The position numbers and the translations under genes are program-made. Source: a virus. Taken from it: a stretch of 30,875 bases of DNA. This document shows, one piece after another, positions 13,198 to 25,637 of this stretch. Below the pieces are notes generated by a model. The model made no database searches, had not been told where the DNA came from, and saw nothing but the letters and a program-made list of their open reading frames with translations. Each line of letters starts with the position of its first letter. Positions within the stretch are counted from its first letter, which is position 1. The stretch lies in IMG/VR virus record IMGVR_UViG_3300032315_000352, positions 1 to 30,875 of that record. One strand, given 5' to 3'.

Positions 13198-13607
13198 TCA
13201 ACGTTTGCCCGAATGCTTTTGCGACCTCGCAACCAAATAACGGTGCATAGTCCACAACATGCGCGGCTCCTCAGCCAACAACACAGACGGAGCAATGCCC
13301 GTCTCAACTGCCAACGAAGCGATAAACCAATGGGCTGACGAGTCGCCTAACCCTTTGATCCTTTTGGGGCTGGCAAATCTACGCTGCCCACCAGCTCGCA
13401 CCACGCATCAAAGTCGGCAACGGTTGCCCCCGTACGCTTCTCAACATGCCACGCCATAAAGAACAAGTGTGTCAGTCGAAGGTCAGAGTTCAGTTTGACA
13501 ATGCTCATGTCAAACCGTGCCTCGAACGCAATTAGGTCAGAGGCAACCGTTGCCACGTCTTTCGTGGAACCGTCAAGGAACTTGATTTGTAGGTTAATGG
13601 GATCCAT
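13198..13607 (-). CDS. Tail assembly chaperone, -1 frameshift product
   Basis: The chaperone frame from 13607 and the overlapping -1 frame ending at 13198 can be joined at the slippery heptamer 13362-13368. The fusion would have about 136 residues: 82 in frame 0 and 54 in the -1 frame. The shifted part has DSSAHWFIASLAVETGIAPS and a basic C-terminus. GT-type fusions of this kind bind the tape measure during tail assembly in many siphophages. The -1 frame has no good start of its own, supporting frameshifting. Confidence 0.8.
13347..13607 (-). CDS. Tail assembly chaperone, short product
   Basis: This 86-residue product of frame 0 begins MDPINLQIKFLDGS and contains a helical region (SDLIAFEARFDMSIVKLNSD) and CELVGSVDLPAPKG. 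It is the short G-like form, made when no frameshift happens; stop TAG is at 13347-13349. It lies between the tail tube and tape measure, the standard location. Confidence 0.85.
   Translation of the reverse strand: MDPINLQIKFLDGSTKDVATVASDLIAFEARFDMSIVKLNSDLRLTHLFFMAWHVEKRTGATVADFDAWCELVGSVDLPAPKGSKG
13362..13368 (-). other. Programmed -1 frameshift site (slippery heptamer)
   Basis: Minus strand CCCAAAA is read in frame as C CCA AAA, a perfect X XXY YYZ slippery sequence. It is followed within 20 nt by the zero-frame stop, and the -1 frame stays open for 54 codons. Purine-rich GGATCAAAGGG follows. Confidence 0.85.
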
Positions 13608-13610
13608 GAG

Positions 13611-14024
13611 TTAGGCAGTGCCTCGCGTGATACCAGCAGTGCCCGCGGTCGGCCACGTCACCGAAAGCGTTGCGAGGTCGCCAATGCTCGAAGCCATCGG
13701 CTGATATTCGGTCACCAGGAACACGCCAGTGTACGAAGGGTTAGTCGCGGTCGCCGTGCCCGAGGTCGGCTTGGCAACAACAGTCGCAAACGACCCAAGC
13801 AGCGGGAACAAGGTTGCGTCAACGCTTCCAGCTGCAAAGTCCTGGTGGAAGTCGAGAGTGACCGAAGCGTCACGCAGACCGCCAATGCGAGTGCGGTACG
13901 TCGTGCCGAAGGAGGTCGTCTCCTGCTCCTCGGCTGAAATGTCAAACGTCAACGCAGCAATCGAGGTCGAAAAATTCGAGCCGTTGATCGTCACGTTGTA
14001 GTCAGTTGCTACGAATTTAGGCAC
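13611..14024 (-). CDS. Major tail tube protein
   Basis: This 137-residue beta-rich protein has an N-terminal VTINGSNFSTSIAALTFDIS, a TTSFGTTYRTRIGG loop and a DASVTLDFHQDF strand, typical of actinophage tail tubes. It lies between the tail terminator and the chaperone. GTG 14024 follows AAGGGGACATC, a strong ribosome site, fitting high expression of the tube. The alternative, a related head-tail completion protein, is less likely. Confidence 0.85.
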   Translation of the reverse strand: MPKFVATDYNVTINGSNFSTSIAALTFDISAEEQETTSFGTTYRTRIGGLRDASVTLDFHQDFAAGSVDATLFPLLGSFATVVAKPTSGTATATNPSYTGVFLVTEYQPMASSIGDLATLSVTWPTAGTAGITRGTA

Positions 14025-14033
14025 GATGTCCCC

Positions 14034-14441
14034 TTAGTTGTAGACCAGAACCGCAAAGTCAGCGGTCAAGTATGTGTTGCTGTCCTCTAATGTTACACTC
14101 CCGACGTTGTTCACGCCGGAAACGAAAACGTCTTGGCTTGCACCCGACAAACCTGGCACAGTTTCGAGCGTCGCTTTGACCGATGTCGCCCCCGAAGGCT
14201 CCATATAGTTGTCGAGCAGATTTTGACCGGAGCGCGTCGACGGTCGAGACACGAACACGGTCACGACGAAGTTATACGCCGTCAAACCGTTCCCGCCAAA
14301 CGACTGCGCATAGTCAATCGTGCCGACCGAGACAACCGCGATAGGCGGGTTGATTTGCTCCGGGATAGTGTCCGACGCACGCAGCCCCGTAATGGTCTGC
14401 AAACGGTCTCTAAGGCCGTCTCTGATGTCTTGGATAGTCAC
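14034..14441 (-). CDS. Tail terminator protein
   Basis: This 135-residue protein with an N-terminal helix (IQDIRDGLRDRLQTITGLRA), then NPPIAVVSVG and a beta core (YNFVVTVFVSRPS), resembles tail terminators that cap the tube and join it to the head. GTG 14441 overlaps the connector stop as GTGA. Order connector, terminator, tube fits the usual plan. Confidence 0.72.
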   Translation of the reverse strand: MTIQDIRDGLRDRLQTITGLRASDTIPEQINPPIAVVSVGTIDYAQSFGGNGLTAYNFVVTVFVSRPSTRSGQNLLDNYMEPSGATSVKATLETVPGLSGASQDVFVSGVNNVGSVTLEDSNTYLTADFAVLVYN

Positions 14442-15037
14442 GCCGCCACCGCACGCTTATACGGGCTTAGCAGGGCTTCCACGTCGGGATCGGTGCGACC
14501 CACACGCAACGCACCCATGTCGCCAAAGCCCGCCACACCCAACGGCGAGTCATACCGTTTGAACTGACGCATCGCCAACAGCAGACAGGCCTGCTTCACA
14601 TCGACTGGAACAGCCGGCCAACCGAAGGTGCCAGTGATTCGCACCGTCGCTTCGCTCAACATATACATCGGGAACACGTTGTTATCAACCGCTCGAATGC
14701 GGGTGAACGGTTGCCCCTGCAAGCCGCCCGAGACCCCGTTTAGCGGTTCGAGCTGATAGTCAGCCGCCGCCCAAGTCGTATCGAAGTTGCTGCCGTCTGT
14801 CGCCGTTTGAAGTGTCGTCAACGTCACGATGTCGTCGGTCTGACACAGAAAATACGATTCCGGAGTGTAGACGCGAGTTTGCGCCGTGCGCTGGTAGAAA
14901 ATGCGTTGGCAGTAGCCGTCGATCTCGCGGCTTGCGGCTTCCACCGACAACTCCAACAGTGCATCGTCTACGAGGTCGGTAATGCGCAACGCAGCCTTCA
15001 CCTCAGCGAGTGAACAGTAACCGTTAGTAATTGCCAT
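14438..15037 (-). CDS. Head-tail connector protein (gp6-like)
   Basis: This 199-residue protein begins with CSLAEVKAALRITDLVDDAL and an ASREIDGYCQRIF helix, the hallmark of phage gp6-like head-tail connectors that ring the portal. ATG 15037 lacks a Shine-Dalgarno but sits 6 nt after TAGAAT, hinting at a leaderless start. The gene follows the glycosyltransferase cassette and resumes the structural module. Confidence 0.85.
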   Translation of the reverse strand: MAITNGYCSLAEVKAALRITDLVDDALLELSVEAASREIDGYCQRIFYQRTAQTRVYTPESYFLCQTDDIVTLTTLQTATDGSNFDTTWAAADYQLEPLNGVSGGLQGQPFTRIRAVDNNVFPMYMLSEATVRITGTFGWPAVPVDVKQACLLLAMRQFKRYDSPLGVAGFGDMGALRVGRTDPDVEALLSPYKRAVAA

Positions 15038-15049
15038 GCGCCGATTCTA
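15038..15049 (-). promoter_or_regulatory. Promoter P5 -10 element, probably leaderless
   Basis: TAGAAT (minus, 15049-15044) is followed by CGGCGC and then ATG 15037. There is no purine-rich ribosome site near the ATG. The -35 would lie within the end of the nucleotidyltransferase gene; none is convincing. Confidence 0.55.
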
Positions 15050-15054
15050 GCGCG

Positions 15055-15483
15055 TCAAAGAACGTCAGCGGCCAACCGTGCCCGAATAGCCGTCGTGGAA
15101 ACTCCCACCGTGTACGGAATGTAAAGCAACCAAATGTTGCGAGCATCAAGCCATGCCTGATCGAAACCCATTTGCGCGTGATAGTCGCGCACCGCCCAAT
15201 CAGAACCGATCGCCACAATGTTGGGTTGCACCTCGTCAATGGCTGGCCTCGAGTCATGACCGCCCGTATTCGGGATCACACCCGCGACCGATGCAAACTC
15301 GGCAATGATTTCCGCACGCTCGTCAAACGACATCACCGGAGGTCGCCCCTTATACGCCGTAATGAACTCGTCAGTGTTCAGGGACACGACAACCTCGCCG
15401 AGCTCTGCACACTGCCGCAAGAACCGCACATGGCCCGCGTGAGGCAAATCAAACGTGCCGCCCGTATAAACCGTCTTAGACAT
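15055..15483 (-). CDS. Nucleotidyltransferase (TagD-like cytidylyltransferase)
   Basis: This 142-residue protein has GGTFDLPHAGH at residues 8-18 (the HxGH nucleotide-binding motif) and a C-terminal VSTTAIRARL, as in glycerol-3-phosphate or related cytidylyltransferases. It would activate a polyol or sugar phosphate with CTP. It follows two glycosyltransferases, so it may supply a donor for surface modification; substrate unproven. ATG 15483 overlaps the upstream glycosyltransferase by 8 nt; an in-frame start at 15504 is less likely. Confidence 0.85.
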   Translation of the reverse strand: MSKTVYTGGTFDLPHAGHVRFLRQCAELGEVVVSLNTDEFITAYKGRPPVMSFDERAEIIAEFASVAGVIPNTGGHDSRPAIDEVQPNIVAIGSDWAVRDYHAQMGFDQAWLDARNIWLLYIPYTVGVSTTAIRARLAADVL

Positions 15484-16177
15484 TCGGCCCCCACTGTCGA
15501 ACATGTTCTTGACCTTGAGGAATTGCCCCCGGCCACCAATTCAAATAGCAGCCAGAATGCGCCGGGTCTAAATGCCACCACTGCGACCAAAACCAGTCAT
15601 GGTCAGCCTGCACCGAATAGTCAAACTCGGTTGGGTAACGCCATGAACCGTCAGACTGCCCGTTAGGTGATCTGTGAACGTACGGAACCGGTCGAACAAA
15701 CGTGATCCGTTTACCCTCCGCCACAGCCTTGTGATACATGTGGTCAGTGTTCCACCACCACAACGCCAAACCGTTAGGGTCAGGCAGTCGCATCGTTGAC
15801 GGTCGAATGGCAAACAGGTGCGGCTCAAGCGGAGCAGGGGTGACCATTTCGCCACGGCCCGACATCGAAACAAGGTCAGCATGCTCGAGCGCGTCAAACA
15901 GTGAAGTCAACGCCCCTGCCGGAATCTCAATGTCGTCATTCATCACCACAACGAGCGGTTCAGGCTCAAGCGCGAGCAAGCAGTCAAACGCCTGATTTAC
16001 CCACTTGTTGAATGTGTCGCCCACCTTCACGAGTAAATGGTCGGCTTCCGGTGCGAGCTCGACATGCTCGGGGTAAACCATCACAACCGACTGCCAACCC
16101 GACTCCGCAATAACACGCACGAGACCCGCAAGCGAATCGTTAGGTTTCTTTGTCGGCACCAACACAAACCGAGTCAC
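15476..16177 (-). CDS. GT-A/GT2-like glycosyltransferase
   Basis: This 233-residue protein has VVVMNDDIEIPAG (Asn-Asp-Asp at residues 80-82, a DxD-like metal site), an acceptor-side NGLALWWWNTDHMYHKAV, and YVHRSPNGQSDGS later. This fits a short GT-A glycosyltransferase. GTG 16177 is chosen because it overlaps the upstream stop as GTGA; an in-frame GTG at 16210 would give a longer overlap. It is coupled to the GT-B enzyme upstream and the nucleotidyltransferase downstream. Target could be capsid, tail or host glycans; unknown. Confidence 0.78.
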   Translation of the reverse strand: MTRFVLVPTKKPNDSLAGLVRVIAESGWQSVVMVYPEHVELAPEADHLLVKVGDTFNKWVNQAFDCLLALEPEPLVVVMNDDIEIPAGALTSLFDALEHADLVSMSGRGEMVTPAPLEPHLFAIRPSTMRLPDPNGLALWWWNTDHMYHKAVAEGKRITFVRPVPYVHRSPNGQSDGSWRYPTEFDYSVQADHDWFWSQWWHLDPAHSGCYLNWWPGAIPQGQEHVRQWGPNV

Positions 16178-17361
16178 ACCGGAAACCGTTTCGACAAATA
16201 CGGCACCCACGAGTCATTCCATACCCGGTCGGCATCGAACTGTCGCGCGAACTTCAACGAACTATCTGACACGCCTCGGTCGGCCTCGTACGCCAAACGC
16301 AGCGCCCCCAAAATGCTCGAAATGTTTGGCACTTTGAACCAAGCCTGTTGCGGTTCATCCCAAAACTCTTGACCAGCCACCAGCCACGAATCTTCGCCGG
16401 CTAAATCTTCCGTCGCACACCAGCTCGACGTGATTACCCTCGTGCCGCACGCCTGCGCCTCCACTACGGGAACGCCGAACCCTTCCCCATAGTTAGCCGC
16501 TAAAAGCACATCCGAGGCCGTGTAGAAGGCTGCTAGGGCCTCTGCGGGGTATCCGAGCCGGTTTACGTCAGTGTTGAGCACGCGCACGAACTCGTCAGTG
16601 AGACCAACCCGTTTCAGTAACGCCCCAATGTTGAACCCGCCAAACGCATTTGAAGGCTCCATGTGGAGATACAGGTACGCATCGGGGTGATCTTGACGAA
16701 ACAGGCTGAACGCCAGCAGGTTTTCGGCGATTGCTTTGCGATGCACCAACCCGTTCGCTTTATTTGCCGCAACCATCGACACGAGAAACGCATCCTCTGG
16801 CACAGACAAGTATTCGCGCGTCGGCACACCGAAAACAGACTCGGTCGGCTTCATCACTTGCATGTCGATACCGTGCGGAATGTACGTCGAGTCAATGCCG
16901 ACACCCTCGAGCTGCCGTTGACCGTGAGGCGACATCGTGACAGGTGACACGTTGCCGCGCATGAGAAACCGTTGCACGTTAGGCGGCAACGTCAAATGAT
17001 CGAGCGGCACCCAAGCGAGCACGTCGCCGTCGAACTGCAAATCGTTGTACACCCACACGTCAAACAACGTCAGCACTGCCGAAGGCAACTTCGGATGCTG
17101 CGCCGTAAAGTGCTCATGCCAGACCGGGATGACATCATCCGAAAACGGTTTGTAGCCGCGCGGATAATGCGCCATAGGGCCATGCGGAGTACGAATCTCC
17201 GACTGATTGCCCTCAAGTCCGAAGTTAGACAGGTTTGCTACTTTCAGCCCCGACCGCACCATACGATCGGCCAACTGTTTCACCTGTTGCCCGTACCCGG
17301 TCGGCATGTTGTAACTGTTCGACGCGATAGACACAGCGCCGCGAAGTGTAGGTTTCGCCAT
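16174..17361 (-). CDS. GT-B (GT4-like) glycosyltransferase
   Basis: This 395-residue enzyme has the N-terminal sensing region (SNSYNMPTGYGQQVKQLADR), an STYIPHGID linker, and the C-terminal donor motif NYGEGFGVPVVEAQACGTRV. These are GT-B features that use nucleotide-sugars. It is not a standard head gene yet sits between capsid and connector. ATG 17361 is directly preceded by TACACT plus 6 nt and lies next to an inverted repeat, suggesting its own promoter. Possible role: glycosylation of virion or host surface. Confidence 0.88.
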   Translation of the reverse strand: MAKPTLRGAVSIASNSYNMPTGYGQQVKQLADRMVRSGLKVANLSNFGLEGNQSEIRTPHGPMAHYPRGYKPFSDDVIPVWHEHFTAQHPKLPSAVLTLFDVWVYNDLQFDGDVLAWVPLDHLTLPPNVQRFLMRGNVSPVTMSPHGQRQLEGVGIDSTYIPHGIDMQVMKPTESVFGVPTREYLSVPEDAFLVSMVAANKANGLVHRKAIAENLLAFSLFRQDHPDAYLYLHMEPSNAFGGFNIGALLKRVGLTDEFVRVLNTDVNRLGYPAEALAAFYTASDVLLAANYGEGFGVPVVEAQACGTRVITSSWCATEDLAGEDSWLVAGQEFWDEPQQAWFKVPNISSILGALRLAYEADRGVSDSSLKFARQFDADRVWNDSWVPYLSKRFPV

Positions 17362-17373
17362 GCGTAAAGTGTA
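17362..17373 (-). promoter_or_regulatory. Promoter P2 -10 element, probably leaderless
   Basis: TACACT (minus, 17373-17368) followed by TTACGC and ATG 17361. It lies right after a strong terminator, so a new transcript is needed. A weak TTCTGT could act as -35 at 17-nt spacing. Confidence 0.6.
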
Positions 17374-17384
17374 GACCTTTACGC
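17362..17384. repeat. Perfect inverted repeat at the glycosyltransferase start
   Basis: GCGTAAAG (17362-17369) and CTTTACGC (17377-17384) form an 8-bp perfect inverted repeat with a 7-nt centre. It abuts ATG 17361 and covers the -10 of P2, so a protein bound there would block the promoter. If the transcript began further upstream, it would fold into a hairpin at the start codon. Confidence 0.75.
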
Positions 17385-17395
17385 CGAAAACAGAA

Positions 17396-17426
17396 GAGAC
17401 CCCCCGGAACCTACGACCGGGGGGCC
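17396..17426 (-). terminator. Intrinsic terminator after the major capsid gene
   Basis: CCCCCCGG (17400-17407) pairs with CCGGGGGG (17417-17424) across a 9-nt loop. On the minus strand it is followed by TCTCTTCTGTTTTC, a U-rich tail. It lies 17 nt past the capsid stop and insulates the glycosyltransferase cassette. Confidence 0.9.
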
Positions 17427-17442
17427 TCAGTCTGTGCGAAGG

Positions 17443-18591
17443 TTACGCGTTCGCCAGGTACTTCACGTGTGCTGCGTGCGTCAGGTTGCCGTCGAAACGG
17501 TACGTGAAGCGGTACGCCGTCACATCGTCAGCGAAGTACGCATCCGAGGACACTGCAACGTCAAGACCAGTGGTGACGATCTTGTACGAAGGCAGGTGAC
17601 CGAAGATGACCGGTCGCGCACCGGTACCGATGTTTGCCATTGCCGGGTTTTCGAAGATGGGGAAACCGAGAACCGTGTCGGGCGCACCAGTGACCACGTT
17701 GTAGATGTACTGACCGGCAGTGTCCTTCAGCTTGCGAATGGCACCGATGGTCTGAGTGTTGGCCTGGTAGCCGACACCGGGCAGACGACGAGCCGCACCG
17801 TCAACGCTGTACGCGAGGTCGATGAGGTTGTCAGCCGTGATTGCCGTGGTGCCGCCCGTGATGCCCGAGCCAGCCGCAACGACGATACCGGTCGGCTGCG
17901 TGGTGCCCGTACCCGTAGTCGCCAAGGCGTTGACCGAGAAGCCGATAGCGTTACCGGCCTGCTCAGCAATGACAGCCTCGATGTCGAAACCGGCATCCAT
18001 GATGAGCTCGTTAGCGAGCTGCACGATGAACGAGGTCTTGCGCGGGCTCAGCAGGATGCTGTCGAAAGTCGGGTTGGACTCAGCGATAGCAGAACCAGCC
18101 GCCGTGATCGACGCAGTGCTGTAGGCAGTCCACGTGGGAAGGCGAAGCGATTCGCCCGAGTCACGAGTGATGACCTCAGACGTGTCCAGCATCGGGCCAA
18201 CGAGACGCGCGAGACCGAACACGCGGTCAAGGAAGCCGACCGGAACCGTAGCCGTAGCAGGAACAAGAGTGCGCTTCTCGTGCGAGAAGTTGTGTCCCCG
18301 CTTCTCACCCGTAGCCATAGCCGCGAAAATGTCGCGCACCGACTCCGCGCCAGCAACAGCAGGCACAAACGTGCCGGCGGCCTGCTCAGCCTCAAGACGA
18401 CGCTGCTCCGAACGCTCCGCGTAACCAATCGACTCGTCAAGGCGAGTGATGTCAGCTTCGATACGTTCGATCTTCTGGTTGTCCTCAGCGACAAGTCCAC
18501 GCTTCTCAGCCTCGGCAGTTTCGATAACGTCTCGAACCTGCATGATGAGGTTAGCGCGGGCCTCACGCTGAGTCTTGATGAACTCAGACAT
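17443..18591 (-). CDS. HK97-fold major capsid protein
   Basis: This 382-residue protein has a helical N-terminal delta-domain (about 1-65, charged coiled coil with RGLVAEDNQKIERIEAD), cut by the prohead protease in this family, followed by the HK97 core: RDSGESLRLPTWTAYSTAS, FIVQLANELIMDAGFDIEA, VLGFPIFENPAM and a terminal VAVSSDAYFADDVTAYRF. ATG 18591 has AGGAG at 7 nt. The gene has its own putative promoter and a strong terminator, fitting high expression. Among the most certain calls here. Confidence 0.96.
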   Translation of the reverse strand: MSEFIKTQREARANLIMQVRDVIETAEAEKRGLVAEDNQKIERIEADITRLDESIGYAERSEQRRLEAEQAAGTFVPAVAGAESVRDIFAAMATGEKRGHNFSHEKRTLVPATATVPVGFLDRVFGLARLVGPMLDTSEVITRDSGESLRLPTWTAYSTASITAAGSAIAESNPTFDSILLSPRKTSFIVQLANELIMDAGFDIEAVIAEQAGNAIGFSVNALATTGTGTTQPTGIVVAAGSGITGGTTAITADNLIDLAYSVDGAARRLPGVGYQANTQTIGAIRKLKDTAGQYIYNVVTGAPDTVLGFPIFENPAMANIGTGARPVIFGHLPSYKIVTTGLDVAVSSDAYFADDVTAYRFTYRFDGNLTHAAHVKYLANA

Positions 18592-22946: not shown

Positions 22947-23367
22947 TACGTTGACGCTCCATAAACTCTTGCAAAGCCGACTTCTTGACCTCAGCCACCC
23001 CAAGTTTCATACGATCTGCGGGAGTAAAACCAAGCAACGACAAAGCCTGCCGAATTGATTTTTCTAGCTCGCGCAACGCAGCACGTTCACGCCACGCGCC
23101 AGGATCATCCATGACCATTGAGCGCAAGACCTCTCGCTCGTCAAATTGTTCACACGTCATAAGCAACAAATCCGCATCGGTAATGTCACTGATCCACATG
23201 CGCCCGACCTGCCACGCCTTCGACCACAACGCCGAACCCGCCGCGCCAAGATATCGCTCAGGCTCTGGCGTGCCCACTGCTTCCGGCAACGCAATCACAA
23301 CCGGGCCAGGGTTGTAGTGCTTTGAACCAGTCTTGCGTTTGACCTCGGCCGGCTTTTCGTTACTCAA
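22936..23367 (-). CDS. Terminase small subunit (P27-like)
   Basis: This 143-residue protein opens with a disordered basic stretch, then PERYLGAAGSALWSKAWQVG and LLLMTCEQFDEREVLRSMV and ends LLGFTPADRMKLGV, the P27-like small terminase pattern. It binds the packaging start site and hands DNA to the large subunit. TTG 23367 has AAGGG at 8 nt and overlaps the HNH stop by 8 nt. Confidence 0.85.
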   Translation of the reverse strand: MSNEKPAEVKRKTGSKHYNPGPVVIALPEAVGTPEPERYLGAAGSALWSKAWQVGRMWISDITDADLLLMTCEQFDEREVLRSMVMDDPGAWRERAALRELEKSIRQALSLLGFTPADRMKLGVAEVKKSALQEFMERQRNGE

Positions 23368-24097
23368 CGCGGTTACCCTTCAACGAATTGCATCGATGGT
23401 GCGCGAGCTGCACGTTTTCCAAAGTGTCTTGCCCACCTTTAGAAATCGGCAATATGTGATCCACAGTCGGCCCTTCCGGGTGCCTCCCGGACAGCGAACG
23501 GTCAACGGGTTTCCCGCACAATTGACAAAGCCAGCGGTCACGGTCGCCAATGTCCATGATGCGAATGGGCTGCGCTCCGACTACGCCTCGGCGCATCGTG
23601 TTCTTCCGCCGATAGTTAGCCCGACGCGCCTCGAGCTTGCACGTCTCGTGATACCTGCGCCCGCCAGTCAAAGACCTCGGCACGACAATATCGTTCTTAC
23701 ACCAAGCGCACGTCAGAACTTTAGTTGGTGGCAAATTTTGACGCATGATTCGCTCGCGCTCGCGCATAGAACGACGCACCCATTCAGCCCGACAAGTTTT
23801 GCTACCGCAAGTCATGCTGTCCTTACGTTGCGTTTCGTAATCTTCGCCGCAAATCTTGCACTTCATTGAAAGCGGGTCGGGCCGTTTTAGCGCGCTGCGC
23901 AACCGATCTTTGCACGAGTTATTGCAGTACTTCTTGCGCGTGCCACCGAGCAAATCGAGCTCCACGCGCTTACCGCAATACCGGCACTCCACCAACGCTT
24001 TGGGCTTCACGCGGCATTCCGCACTGCAATAAACCCTCACCCGGCCTCGATTGCCCAGCGCGTGAAACTCAACGCCGCACCTCTTGCAATTTCGCAT
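23360..24097 (-). CDS. HNH endonuclease with tandem zinc ribbons
   Basis: Cys pairs at 4/7, 24/28, 38/41, 58/62, 80/83, 97/102 and 130/133 with His150/Cys153 form at least three, probably four, zinc-ribbon-like modules. The HNH core is CQLCGKPV (191-194 Cys pair), TVDHILPISKGG and NVQLAHHRCNSLKGN. It lies directly before the terminase, where HNH partners stimulate cos cleavage in several phages. ATG 24097 has no Shine-Dalgarno but TACACT plus 6 nt before it. It may recognise the packaging site, by inference. Confidence 0.9.
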   Translation of the reverse strand: MRNCKRCGVEFHALGNRGRVRVYCSAECRVKPKALVECRYCGKRVELDLLGGTRKKYCNNSCKDRLRSALKRPDPLSMKCKICGEDYETQRKDSMTCGSKTCRAEWVRRSMRERERIMRQNLPPTKVLTCAWCKNDIVVPRSLTGGRRYHETCKLEARRANYRRKNTMRRGVVGAQPIRIMDIGDRDRWLCQLCGKPVDRSLSGRHPEGPTVDHILPISKGGQDTLENVQLAHHRCNSLKGNRVE

Positions 24098-24241: not shown

Positions 24242-24574
24242 TCAGCGGCTTAGTGGCTTGTTGCCTCGTCGTGCGTTGCATGACCGGTGGGCGGGGGCAA
24301 GTTGTGATGTTGGATCGCCTGCAATCAGGTGGTCGGCTTGCCATGGGTCGCCAGGTATGGCCCCCCTGCCGCATAGGTGACATGCGATTGCGTTGTTGCG
24401 TATCCATTGCGCTTGGCGTTTGTAGGCCGAAGTGTAGAGGGCTGCTTTGCGTGCTTTGCGTTCTGGTGTGTTTTGTCTTGCGGCTTTGGCTTGGTCGTGT
24501 GCTTGTTGGTGTGTTGGGCATCGGGTTGACCGTGAGAGTGTGCCGCATTCGATGCAGGGTTTATTGAAGGTCAT
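24242..24574 (-). CDS. Small HNH endonuclease
   Basis: This 110-residue protein has CIECGTLSRSTRCPTH near the start and an HNH core with CHLCGRGAIPGDPWQADHLI and APAHRSCNARRGN, typical of packaging-linked HNH proteins near terminases. It could nick DNA at the cos site with terminase. ATG 24574 follows AAGG at 6 nt and overlaps the glycosyltransferase by 14 nt. The basic helical middle (about 25-55) may contact DNA. Confidence 0.9.
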   Translation of the reverse strand: MTFNKPCIECGTLSRSTRCPTHQQAHDQAKAARQNTPERKARKAALYTSAYKRQAQWIRNNAIACHLCGRGAIPGDPWQADHLIAGDPTSQLAPAHRSCNARRGNKPLSR

Positions 24575-25637
24575 TGACGGCCTTAGCGAAGGTGGCTTGG
24601 ATTGCAGGCCATGAAAGTTCTGCGCCTTGTTCTCGTGCGAGCTGTGATTGTGTTGCCCAGTCGTTTGACATGGCGCGTATCTTCTCGGGCAGGTCTCCGA
24701 TGGTCGTGATGGTGATGCCGCGTGTGTCGTATCCTCGAGCGCCGAGCGGAGTTGTTACGACGGGCAGGCCGTGCGCGAGTGCTCGACTGACCTTCAAGTG
24801 TGTTCCGGAACCGTGCGTGGTGAGCGTCACAAACGCGTGCGCTGTGTTGAATAGGTGGTCTCGTTGCTCGTCAGTGACATGCCCGTGAAGGGTGACGTTG
24901 TCGGCAGGGTTTTGCACATAGTCGGCACACCCGCCGATGATGTGGATTTCGTAGTCGGGAAGCAGTACGGCTTGGCTTGCAAGCAGTTGTGCTGCGGCAA
25001 TGTTCGGGTTATACACCGAGCCAATAAAGATGAGGTTGCAGGTTGTGCCGTCGCTTATCGTTTCCGGTAAATCGGTGCCGTTCGGAATGTGCAACATGGG
25101 TGCGGTTGGGTTGAACAGTTTTCGTAATGCTTGCGCGTCACTCTCCGACGCATAGGTGATGAGGTCGGCGCGTTCGACCGCGCGCCGTTCAAGATTTGCT
25201 ACCAGCTCGACGTCGAAGCTGCGCGGGTATTGCTGTTGAGTGTTTAGCGTTTCGCAGTTTGCCGCATCGAGTACGAGTCGTGCCGAGTCCGGTACGAAGT
25301 CGATCAACCACGGATGCTCCATCACGATCACGTCAGGCTCGAGCTCGGCGACCTGTGCGCGCAGGTCTCCGAGGTCGCCCTTCACCAACATCGGCATAGG
25401 GTCGAAGGTTGCCACCCCGTTTTGCAGTAACCGCTCTGCCTTGTTCCGAGCTGCCGCAGGTGCCGCCACTACTCGGTAGTCAATGTCGCCGACCTGTTGC
25501 CGGTTGTTGTTGCCGTGCCAGTCGATCGCAAACGTGATGATCTTGCCGAGCGCCGCAAACAATTTGAAGGTGCGTTCTGTGCCGCCCGATTGTGCCGGCA
25601 GAAACGGCCACGGCGCTAAGCCAACAATGCGCGTCAC
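24561..25637 (-). CDS. GT-B (GT4-like) glycosyltransferase, second locus
   Basis: This 358-residue protein has PWPFLPAQSGGTERTFKLFA near the start, CETLNTQQQYPRSF, LHIPNGTDLPE at the domain linker and FVTLTTHGSGTHLKVSRALA with TTPLGARGYD in the donor domain. It is a complete GT-B enzyme in the accessory region, separate from the capsid-linked cassette. GTG 25637 overlaps the 42-residue gene stop as GTGA. Function may be virion or host glycan modification; donor unknown. Confidence 0.87.
   Translation of the reverse strand: MTRIVGLAPWPFLPAQSGGTERTFKLFAALGKIITFAIDWHGNNNRQQVGDIDYRVVAAPAAARNKAERLLQNGVATFDPMPMLVKGDLGDLRAQVAELEPDVIVMEHPWLIDFVPDSARLVLDAANCETLNTQQQYPRSFDVELVANLERRAVERADLITYASESDAQALRKLFNPTAPMLHIPNGTDLPETISDGTTCNLIFIGSVYNPNIAAAQLLASQAVLLPDYEIHIIGGCADYVQNPADNVTLHGHVTDEQRDHLFNTAHAFVTLTTHGSGTHLKVSRALAHGLPVVTTPLGARGYDTRGITITTIGDLPEKIRAMSNDWATQSQLAREQGAELSWPAIQATFAKAVNDLQ

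Follow-up and report, generated by a model that had tools for sequence, protein, structure and literature searches.

In the viral record IMGVR_UViG_3300032315_000352 (30,875 nucleotides; the window, by which we mean the whole 30.9-kb stretch that was analysed), the major capsid protein (MCP) gene is followed by an intrinsic-terminator hairpin whose apical loop has its complement in the first codons of two other genes, both in the transcription unit that comes next. One of these encodes a glycosyltransferase of the GT-B type and lies directly behind the hairpin at the head of a small cassette of sugar-modification genes; the other encodes the tail assembly chaperone (TAC) and lies about 3.8 kb downstream. 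The hairpin is probably a base-pairing regulatory RNA element, with a loop antisense to the starts of the GT-B and TAC genes and with the cassette under its control. Paired mutations in loop and targets across many related viruses point to an RNA switch, previously undescribed, by which the production of heads and tails would be linked. Coordinates are collected in Table 1.

Relatives of the window were collected with the GT-B, MCP and head-tail connector proteins as queries, and almost all of the resulting loci (designated here by L numbers) are metagenomic contigs. The 75 nucleotides (nt) that follow the MCP stop codon have a predicted fold of −39.3 kcal/mol, and in the window's group an equivalent strong stem-loop comes after MCP whether or not the cassette is present. 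On the predicted structure an intrinsic terminator sets the 3′ end, as in base-pairing RNAs derived from 3′ untranslated regions (3′UTRs). The loop in most relatives resembles TTGTAGGTT, and the hairpins were chosen by a simple stem-scoring script that was blind to the targets. A search of Rfam 15 gave no match above the gathering score; one chance match below the threshold fell in another part of the window. In these, the gene after the hairpin begins with the complement of the loop (ATGGCGAAACCTAC in the window and ATGGCAACCTACAA in L015), and a search of all loci located this complement a second time, in the opening codons of TAC, which follows the tail tube gene.

Loop and targets change together. 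TAGG in the loop is matched by CCTA in the target, CAGG by CCTG, and CTAGG by CCTAG; more extended examples are the loops GTAGGGT with target ACCCTAC, GCGCAGG with CCTGCGC, CTAGGTTG with CAACCTAG, GCAGGTTG with CAACCTGC, TGCAGGTT with AACCTGCA, TTGTAGGTC with GACCTACAA, TGCGTAGGTC with GACCTACGCA, and TTTGGTTGAT with ATCAACCAAA (GT-B). L262 has the loop TTGGTTGGTA and the target TACCAACCAA just before the TAC start, and in one clade the pairing with TAC is kept through a G-U pair (loop TGTGGGTTG, target CAACCTACA). At least six loop classes have matching targets, the pattern expected of compensatory change, and on the MCP tree the loop class has switched 15 times or more when unclassified loops are left out.

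The complementarity is also well beyond chance, as measured by the longest perfect complement that the loop, extended by 3 nt on each side, can form with the 75 nt around a gene start, using distinct loci only. For GT-B (n = 131) the mean is 6.74 nt, compared with 5.33 nt (standard deviation 0.10) when loops are permuted, and 52% of loci reach at least 7 nt; for TAC (n = 108) the corresponding values are 7.43 nt, 5.96 nt (standard deviation 0.11) and 71%, and z is about 13.6 for each target. Three other gene starts, examined with the same statistic as controls, have no excess (connector, z −0.4; tube, −1.4; TagD-like gene, −0.2) and were rejected as further targets, and the tail terminator start has a weak excess (z +2.6). 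We note that L015, L025 and L075 carry extra copies of AACCTACAAAC at +33 to +36 from the start of the tail terminator gene; these may be a third target in one clade. To allow for shared descent among the loci, we also compared pairs of loci that occupy non-overlapping paths on the tree and differ in loop class; the loop fits its own target better in 17.4 versus 1.6 such pairs for TAC (p = 7e-4) and in 16.0 versus 1.6 for GT-B (p = 1.3e-3), and the same test on the control genes gave no significance. Complements of 8 nt to the loop occur at 10.9 per kb at TAC starts and 6.4 per kb at GT-B starts, compared with 0.14 per kb elsewhere. When a 12-nt window is moved across the 3′ region of MCP, matches of at least 7 nt to the two targets are found at the loop in 72% and 56% of loci, and elsewhere in 0–8%. 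Finally, in 43 newly fetched loci analysed with the same code, the observed mean was reached by none of 5000 permutations for GT-B and by 14 of 5000 for TAC, again with null results for the controls.

Conservation of the targets as protein sequence was considered as a source of this pattern and ruled out, since the reading frame of the GT-B target varies (offset +3 to +9) and the leucine codon in the TAC target, which belongs to the first strand, follows the loop. With a TAGG loop this codon is CTA in all 64 TAC genes, against a background of 26%, and with a CAGG loop it is CTG in 11 of 16; in the window as a whole CTA accounts for 3.8% of leucine codons. A tabulation of TAC loci by loop and target gives 57 of TAGG with CCTA, 13 of CAGG with CCTG and no mismatched combination, with four changes of each trait on the tree. 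Several observations do weigh against a regulatory interpretation. The matches in the window itself are 7 nt each and are unremarkable on their own (GTAGGTT has three sites where 1.5 are expected), the match falls to 6–7 nt in the near relatives L005–L009, and there is no pairing in the Pontimonas phage phiPsal1 (which does have the hairpin), in L104–L120 or in L039–L043; because these clades lack it, the pairing must be dispensable. We nonetheless regard the loop-target pairing across the group as almost certainly real. The MCP 3′ hairpin itself is more widespread than the pairing: the Rhodococcus phages REQ1, Shagrat and Jflix2 (L337, L338 and L340) have strong hairpins 3′ of MCP, none of which is complementary to the chaperone start, and in Madraxi no hairpin is found in the folded stretch after MCP and there is no pairing with the chaperone start.

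From its position and organization the gene after the tube gene is a G/GT-type tail assembly chaperone with a putative −1 programmed frameshift. A −1 extension of at least 40 codons is present in 113 of 118 loci, with a slippery site near the stop codon of the short form, and the extension contains a conserved motif, HWxxAxLAxExGIxPxxL...PRMLWTMxRYL. The TAC target lies just before the ATG in L326 and L332 instead of inside the gene, and L258 also has a site in that position. In phages whose site behind MCP is empty, the loop pairs with TAC in 15 of 23, which suggests that TAC, a gene unconnected with the cassette, is the primary partner and GT-B a second target.

The −10 elements that the earlier note had placed ahead of the GT-B and connector genes are real, and the same spacing recurs in relatives: TANNNT separated from the start by exactly 6 nt is found at 77% of 148 GT-B starts and 48% of 144 connector starts, and at no tube starts. 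With spacing of 5–8 nt these values are 86% and 49%, and 9% and 7% in shuffled sequences. A leaderless-type promoter is thus predicted to drive GT-B just behind the MCP terminator. An automated scan missed promoter and terminator elements through limits of its consensus and because it allowed terminator loops of no more than 8 nt. An inverted repeat, CGTAAAG..CTTTACG, surrounds the GT-B −10 element (window 17362–17383) and could be an operator or a small hairpin. TAC has its own TANNNT (gap 5–8 nt) in 20 of 33 loci that do not pair but in only 3 of 85 that do (Fisher 3e-11), so that the promoterless TAC genes are those with antisense pairing, and where pairing is missing TAC mostly has a promoter of its own. 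The non-pairing clades L104–L120 and L122–L124 have TANNNT a few nucleotides before TAC, an apparent swap of one type of regulation for another.

Tailed phages require hundreds of capsid subunits and few assembly chaperones, and the known means of tuning structural gene output are frameshifting, promoters and operon order. We propose that capsid mRNA terminated at the hairpin, or a fragment from its 3′ end, would expose the loop, which would then bind in trans to codons 2–7 of TAC and GT-B or to the region just before the start. This would hinder ribosome initiation and keep TAC and GT-B low relative to capsid while capsid mRNA is abundant, and the GT-B/GT-A/TagD cassette would be a long-resident sugar module placed under hairpin control. 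We infer both the repressive sign and the action in trans, and judge the two together to have slightly the better of the odds. The more specific idea of a head-to-tail switch in these aquatic phages, in which the hairpin of the capsid mRNA represses TAC and the capsid-adjacent glycosyltransferase in trans until capsid transcription wanes, is tentative, and we would place it just short of an even chance.

Pairing could instead occur in cis within read-through RNA, as an H-type pseudoknot with the GT-B start and a long-range fold with TAC that sets translation or terminator read-through. The hairpin and its two targets do share a strand, with the hairpin upstream, and the GT-B start is a median of 19.5 nt past the hairpin, which fits the distance of a pseudoknot. 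However, trans action is favoured because a promoter lies between the hairpin and GT-B (in 77–86% of loci), such that much of the GT-B mRNA should be without the hairpin, and because TAC, the more strongly conserved of the targets, is kilobases distant; moreover, phages with an empty site retain only this distant target. We consider a cis arrangement unlikely. Somewhat less likely still is that the pairing stimulates expression, by stabilising the TAC and GT-B mRNAs or tethering them to the capsid mRNA, or by blocking an inhibitory fold, with co-expression of head and tail as the outcome. The sequence leaves the sign open and some base-pairing RNAs do activate (e.g. StxS on rpoS, PMC12197685), but pairing over codons 2–7 or just before the start falls within the ribosome footprint, the usual place of repression. 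Lastly, the motif could be a DNA operator for a phage regulator, present at three places and drifting in step with the specificity of the protein, and the GT-B copy does adjoin a promoter. This is hard to reconcile with a motif that is situated exactly in the apical loop and nowhere else in the hairpin, that is always in antisense orientation, that is found at TAC genes of which nearly all lack a promoter, and that in one clade pairs with TAC through G-U, and we regard it as highly improbable.

Recognition by antisense RNAs, such as the plasmid copy-number RNAs, starts from an exposed hairpin loop, and the element proposed here would share this loop-first recognition, although its loop matches the start-codon regions of two separate genes. 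A close parallel is offered by the 3′UTR-derived small RNAs (sRNAs) OppZ, CarZ and CisR of Vibrio cholerae (PMC13250501), in which RNA from the 3′ end of an mRNA pairs with the translation starts of other mRNAs; the present example differs in that the putative RNA would come from a phage capsid gene, the antisense segment is in the apical loop of the terminator, and the targets are in the same phage. Phage RNAs that act by base pairing include StxS, STnc6030, aQ and 24B_1 (PMC12197685), of which STnc6030 acts on a tailspike mRNA; capsid genes are unmentioned in that review, and here the pairing is kept by covariation across many species. The literature consulted on 3′UTR-derived and phage sRNAs (PMC13250501, PMC12197685) contains no element of this kind, and as its coverage is incomplete the novelty is provisional. 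If the interpretation is correct, pairing of the capsid gene terminator with the start of the chaperone gene would couple head to tail production by simple post-transcriptional means in aquatic phages of a widespread group, and the stoichiometry of virion assembly would be set by a base-pairing RNA that forms part of a structural gene. The element also shows that conserved antisense information can reside in the loop of a terminator, and other phages may merit scanning for such loops. The pairing is testable by one synonymous codon change together with a change of one loop base.

Table 1. Genes and sequence elements of the capsid-to-chaperone region, in window coordinates.
Feature	Coordinates	Strand	Evidence or remark
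Open reading frame in the −1 frame, adding ~50 codons to TAC (...HWFIASLAVETGIAPSVLLAEEPRMLWTMHRYL...)	13198..13404	-	conserved extension
TAC, short form	13347..13607	-	between tube and tape measure; slippery C CCA AAA at 13362-13368
Target site 2, AACCTAC, codons 5-7 of TAC	13589..13595	-	complement of loop core
Major tail (tube) protein	13611..14024	-	phrog_4574 1.5e-31
Head-tail connector, gp6-like	14438..15037	-	PF05135 5.5e-7; phrog_442
−10 element TAGAAT, 6 nt before connector ATG	15044..15049	-	sequence
TagD-like cytidylyltransferase	15055..15483	-	PF01467 3.8e-17; PDB matches 5x3d, 3elb, 1coz
Probable GT-A (GT2-like) glycosyltransferase	15476..16210	-	NDDI motif; weak profile match
GT-B glycosyltransferase, GT4-like	16174..17361	-	PF13692 and PF00534 above cut-off; phrog_2170 glycosyltransferase 1e-32
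Target site 1, AACCTAC, codons 3-5 of GT-B	17348..17354	-	complement of loop core
−10 element TACACT, 6 nt before GT-B ATG; predicted leaderless-type promoter	17368..17373	-	sequence
Intrinsic-terminator hairpin 3′ of MCP: 12-bp GC-rich stem, 9-nt loop, U-rich tail	17396..17428	-	predicted fold
Apical loop TCGTAGGTT, putative antisense element; pairing core GTAGGTT at 17408-17414	17408..17416	-	covariation; complementarity confined to loop
HK97-type MCP gene, source of 3′ hairpin	17443..18591	-	PF05065 1.6e-48; phrog_10 3.2e-56

The structural genes of the window are all on the minus strand, in the order terminase, portal, protease, MCP, GT-B, probable GT-A, TagD-like, connector, tail terminator, tube, TAC and tape measure. 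The earlier note described the three genes behind MCP as a coupled unit of a GT-B enzyme, a GT-A enzyme and a TagD-like nucleotidyltransferase, a description that holds for the first and third genes and for their coupling, since the reading frames overlap by 37 nt and 8 nt, and that is only likely for the second. The GT-B protein has an invariant E-x7-E motif (EGFG...E) together with a Pfam group 1 domain, placing it among GT4-like GT-B enzymes, and the closest solved structure to its profile is chlorovirus B736L (3oy2, E 2e-12), which differs in being a protein of a eukaryotic virus. The middle gene has no significant Pfam or PHROG match and its AlphaFold model, built from a shallow alignment, is poor (predicted local distance difference test, pLDDT, 49); however, it contains the NDDI motif, and 25 surrounding residues give a weak hhalign match (probability 12%, E 0.002) to the GT2 proteins in the same place in relatives, such that its product is likely a GT-A enzyme. 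The TagD-like protein belongs to the CTP_transf_like family, with GTFDxxHxGH and STT motifs; this family and its motifs are shared with TagD (1coz) and Fom1 (5x3d), and among solved structures the best matches are the Fom1 cytidylyltransferase chain, which ranks ahead of TagD, ethanolamine-phosphate cytidylyltransferase, and TagD itself.

The same note regarded the cassette as a self-contained insert (a moron), flanked by a terminator, at a position usually taken up by connectors alone. The analysis does support a sugar-modification cassette that is situated between capsid and connector and has a promoter of its own. The hairpin is real, but as it also follows MCP at empty sites it belongs to the MCP gene and marks no insert boundary. 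Nor is the site normally limited to connectors: among 223 classifiable related loci in this phage group, 180 have GT-B behind MCP, 36 are empty (with ∼90–130 nt between MCP and the connector in those measured) and seven have other content. All six of the closest contigs (L004–L009) carry the same three genes as core, an observation that the earlier note had itself named as counting against its reading, and homologues of GT-B recur at the site at identities as low as 38%. Behind GT-B the gene content is changeable, and includes GT2-type genes, TagD, RmlD-like and other epimerases, methyltransferases and an HNH-like open reading frame; phiPsal1, for example, has GT-B, a methyltransferase and a GT2 in the same place. 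Because GT-B is kept in most loci while its neighbours are exchanged, the site is a hotspot of sugar genes, with GT-B as a resident of long standing, rather than the location of a recent moron. That the cassette is a moron of recent date, equipped with promoter and terminator, is accordingly very unlikely, and could at most hold for the GT-A and TagD-like genes; the −10 element and the relatives with empty sites are as such a moron would require, but the same genes are in all close relatives, the GC content equals that of the flanking genes, and a version with its own terminator is ruled out by the hairpins at empty sites and the prevalence of GT-B. The MCP tree has at least six switches between the occupied and empty states, and the trees of MCP, GT-B and the connector are only partly congruent, so that gains at the site are indistinguishable from losses. 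In L021 an HNH-like endonuclease open reading frame lies on the opposite strand between MCP and GT-B and is a possible agent of cargo exchange. The third cassette gene of L023, L024, L025 and L069 encodes an RmlD-like reductase/epimerase, and these phages may make their own nucleotide sugar.

By analogy, the cassette may well act on the virion as a decoration system, which we favour by a small measure. Capsid and tail tube subunits of mycobacteriophages carry glycans (Freeman et al. 2023, as cited in PMC12619734); for chlorovirus B736L the donor, acceptor and role are unproven (PMC4691112). The alternative that it glycosylates the host surface, for superinfection exclusion or receptor masking, draws on the role of TagD, glycosyltransferase and epimerase genes in building wall polymers as well, and on the unusual, polyrhamnose-type wall of Pontimonas (PMC6106888). 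Against this, the cassette follows the capsid gene within the late structural module, none of the window open reading frames scanned was recognised as an integrase, and the nearest solved relative of GT-B is a chlorovirus glycosyltransferase; furthermore the related phiPsal1, found with Pontimonas (Microbacteriaceae), is described as lytic (PMC6106888), which would leave little time to alter the host. We consider modification of the host surface rather unlikely. A search of a genome collection gave four matches, all in one Microbacteriaceae metagenome-assembled genome, and the inference of a host from these is weak.

Elsewhere in the window there is a second GT4-like glycosyltransferase gene (24561–25637, minus strand), upstream of the terminase gene and adjoining an HNH endonuclease gene (23360–24097); the GC and AT skews of this stretch are reversed, and it may be a sugar gene that was acquired separately. 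A DNA methyltransferase gene is located at 1085–1825 on the minus strand (phrog_67, 2e-49).

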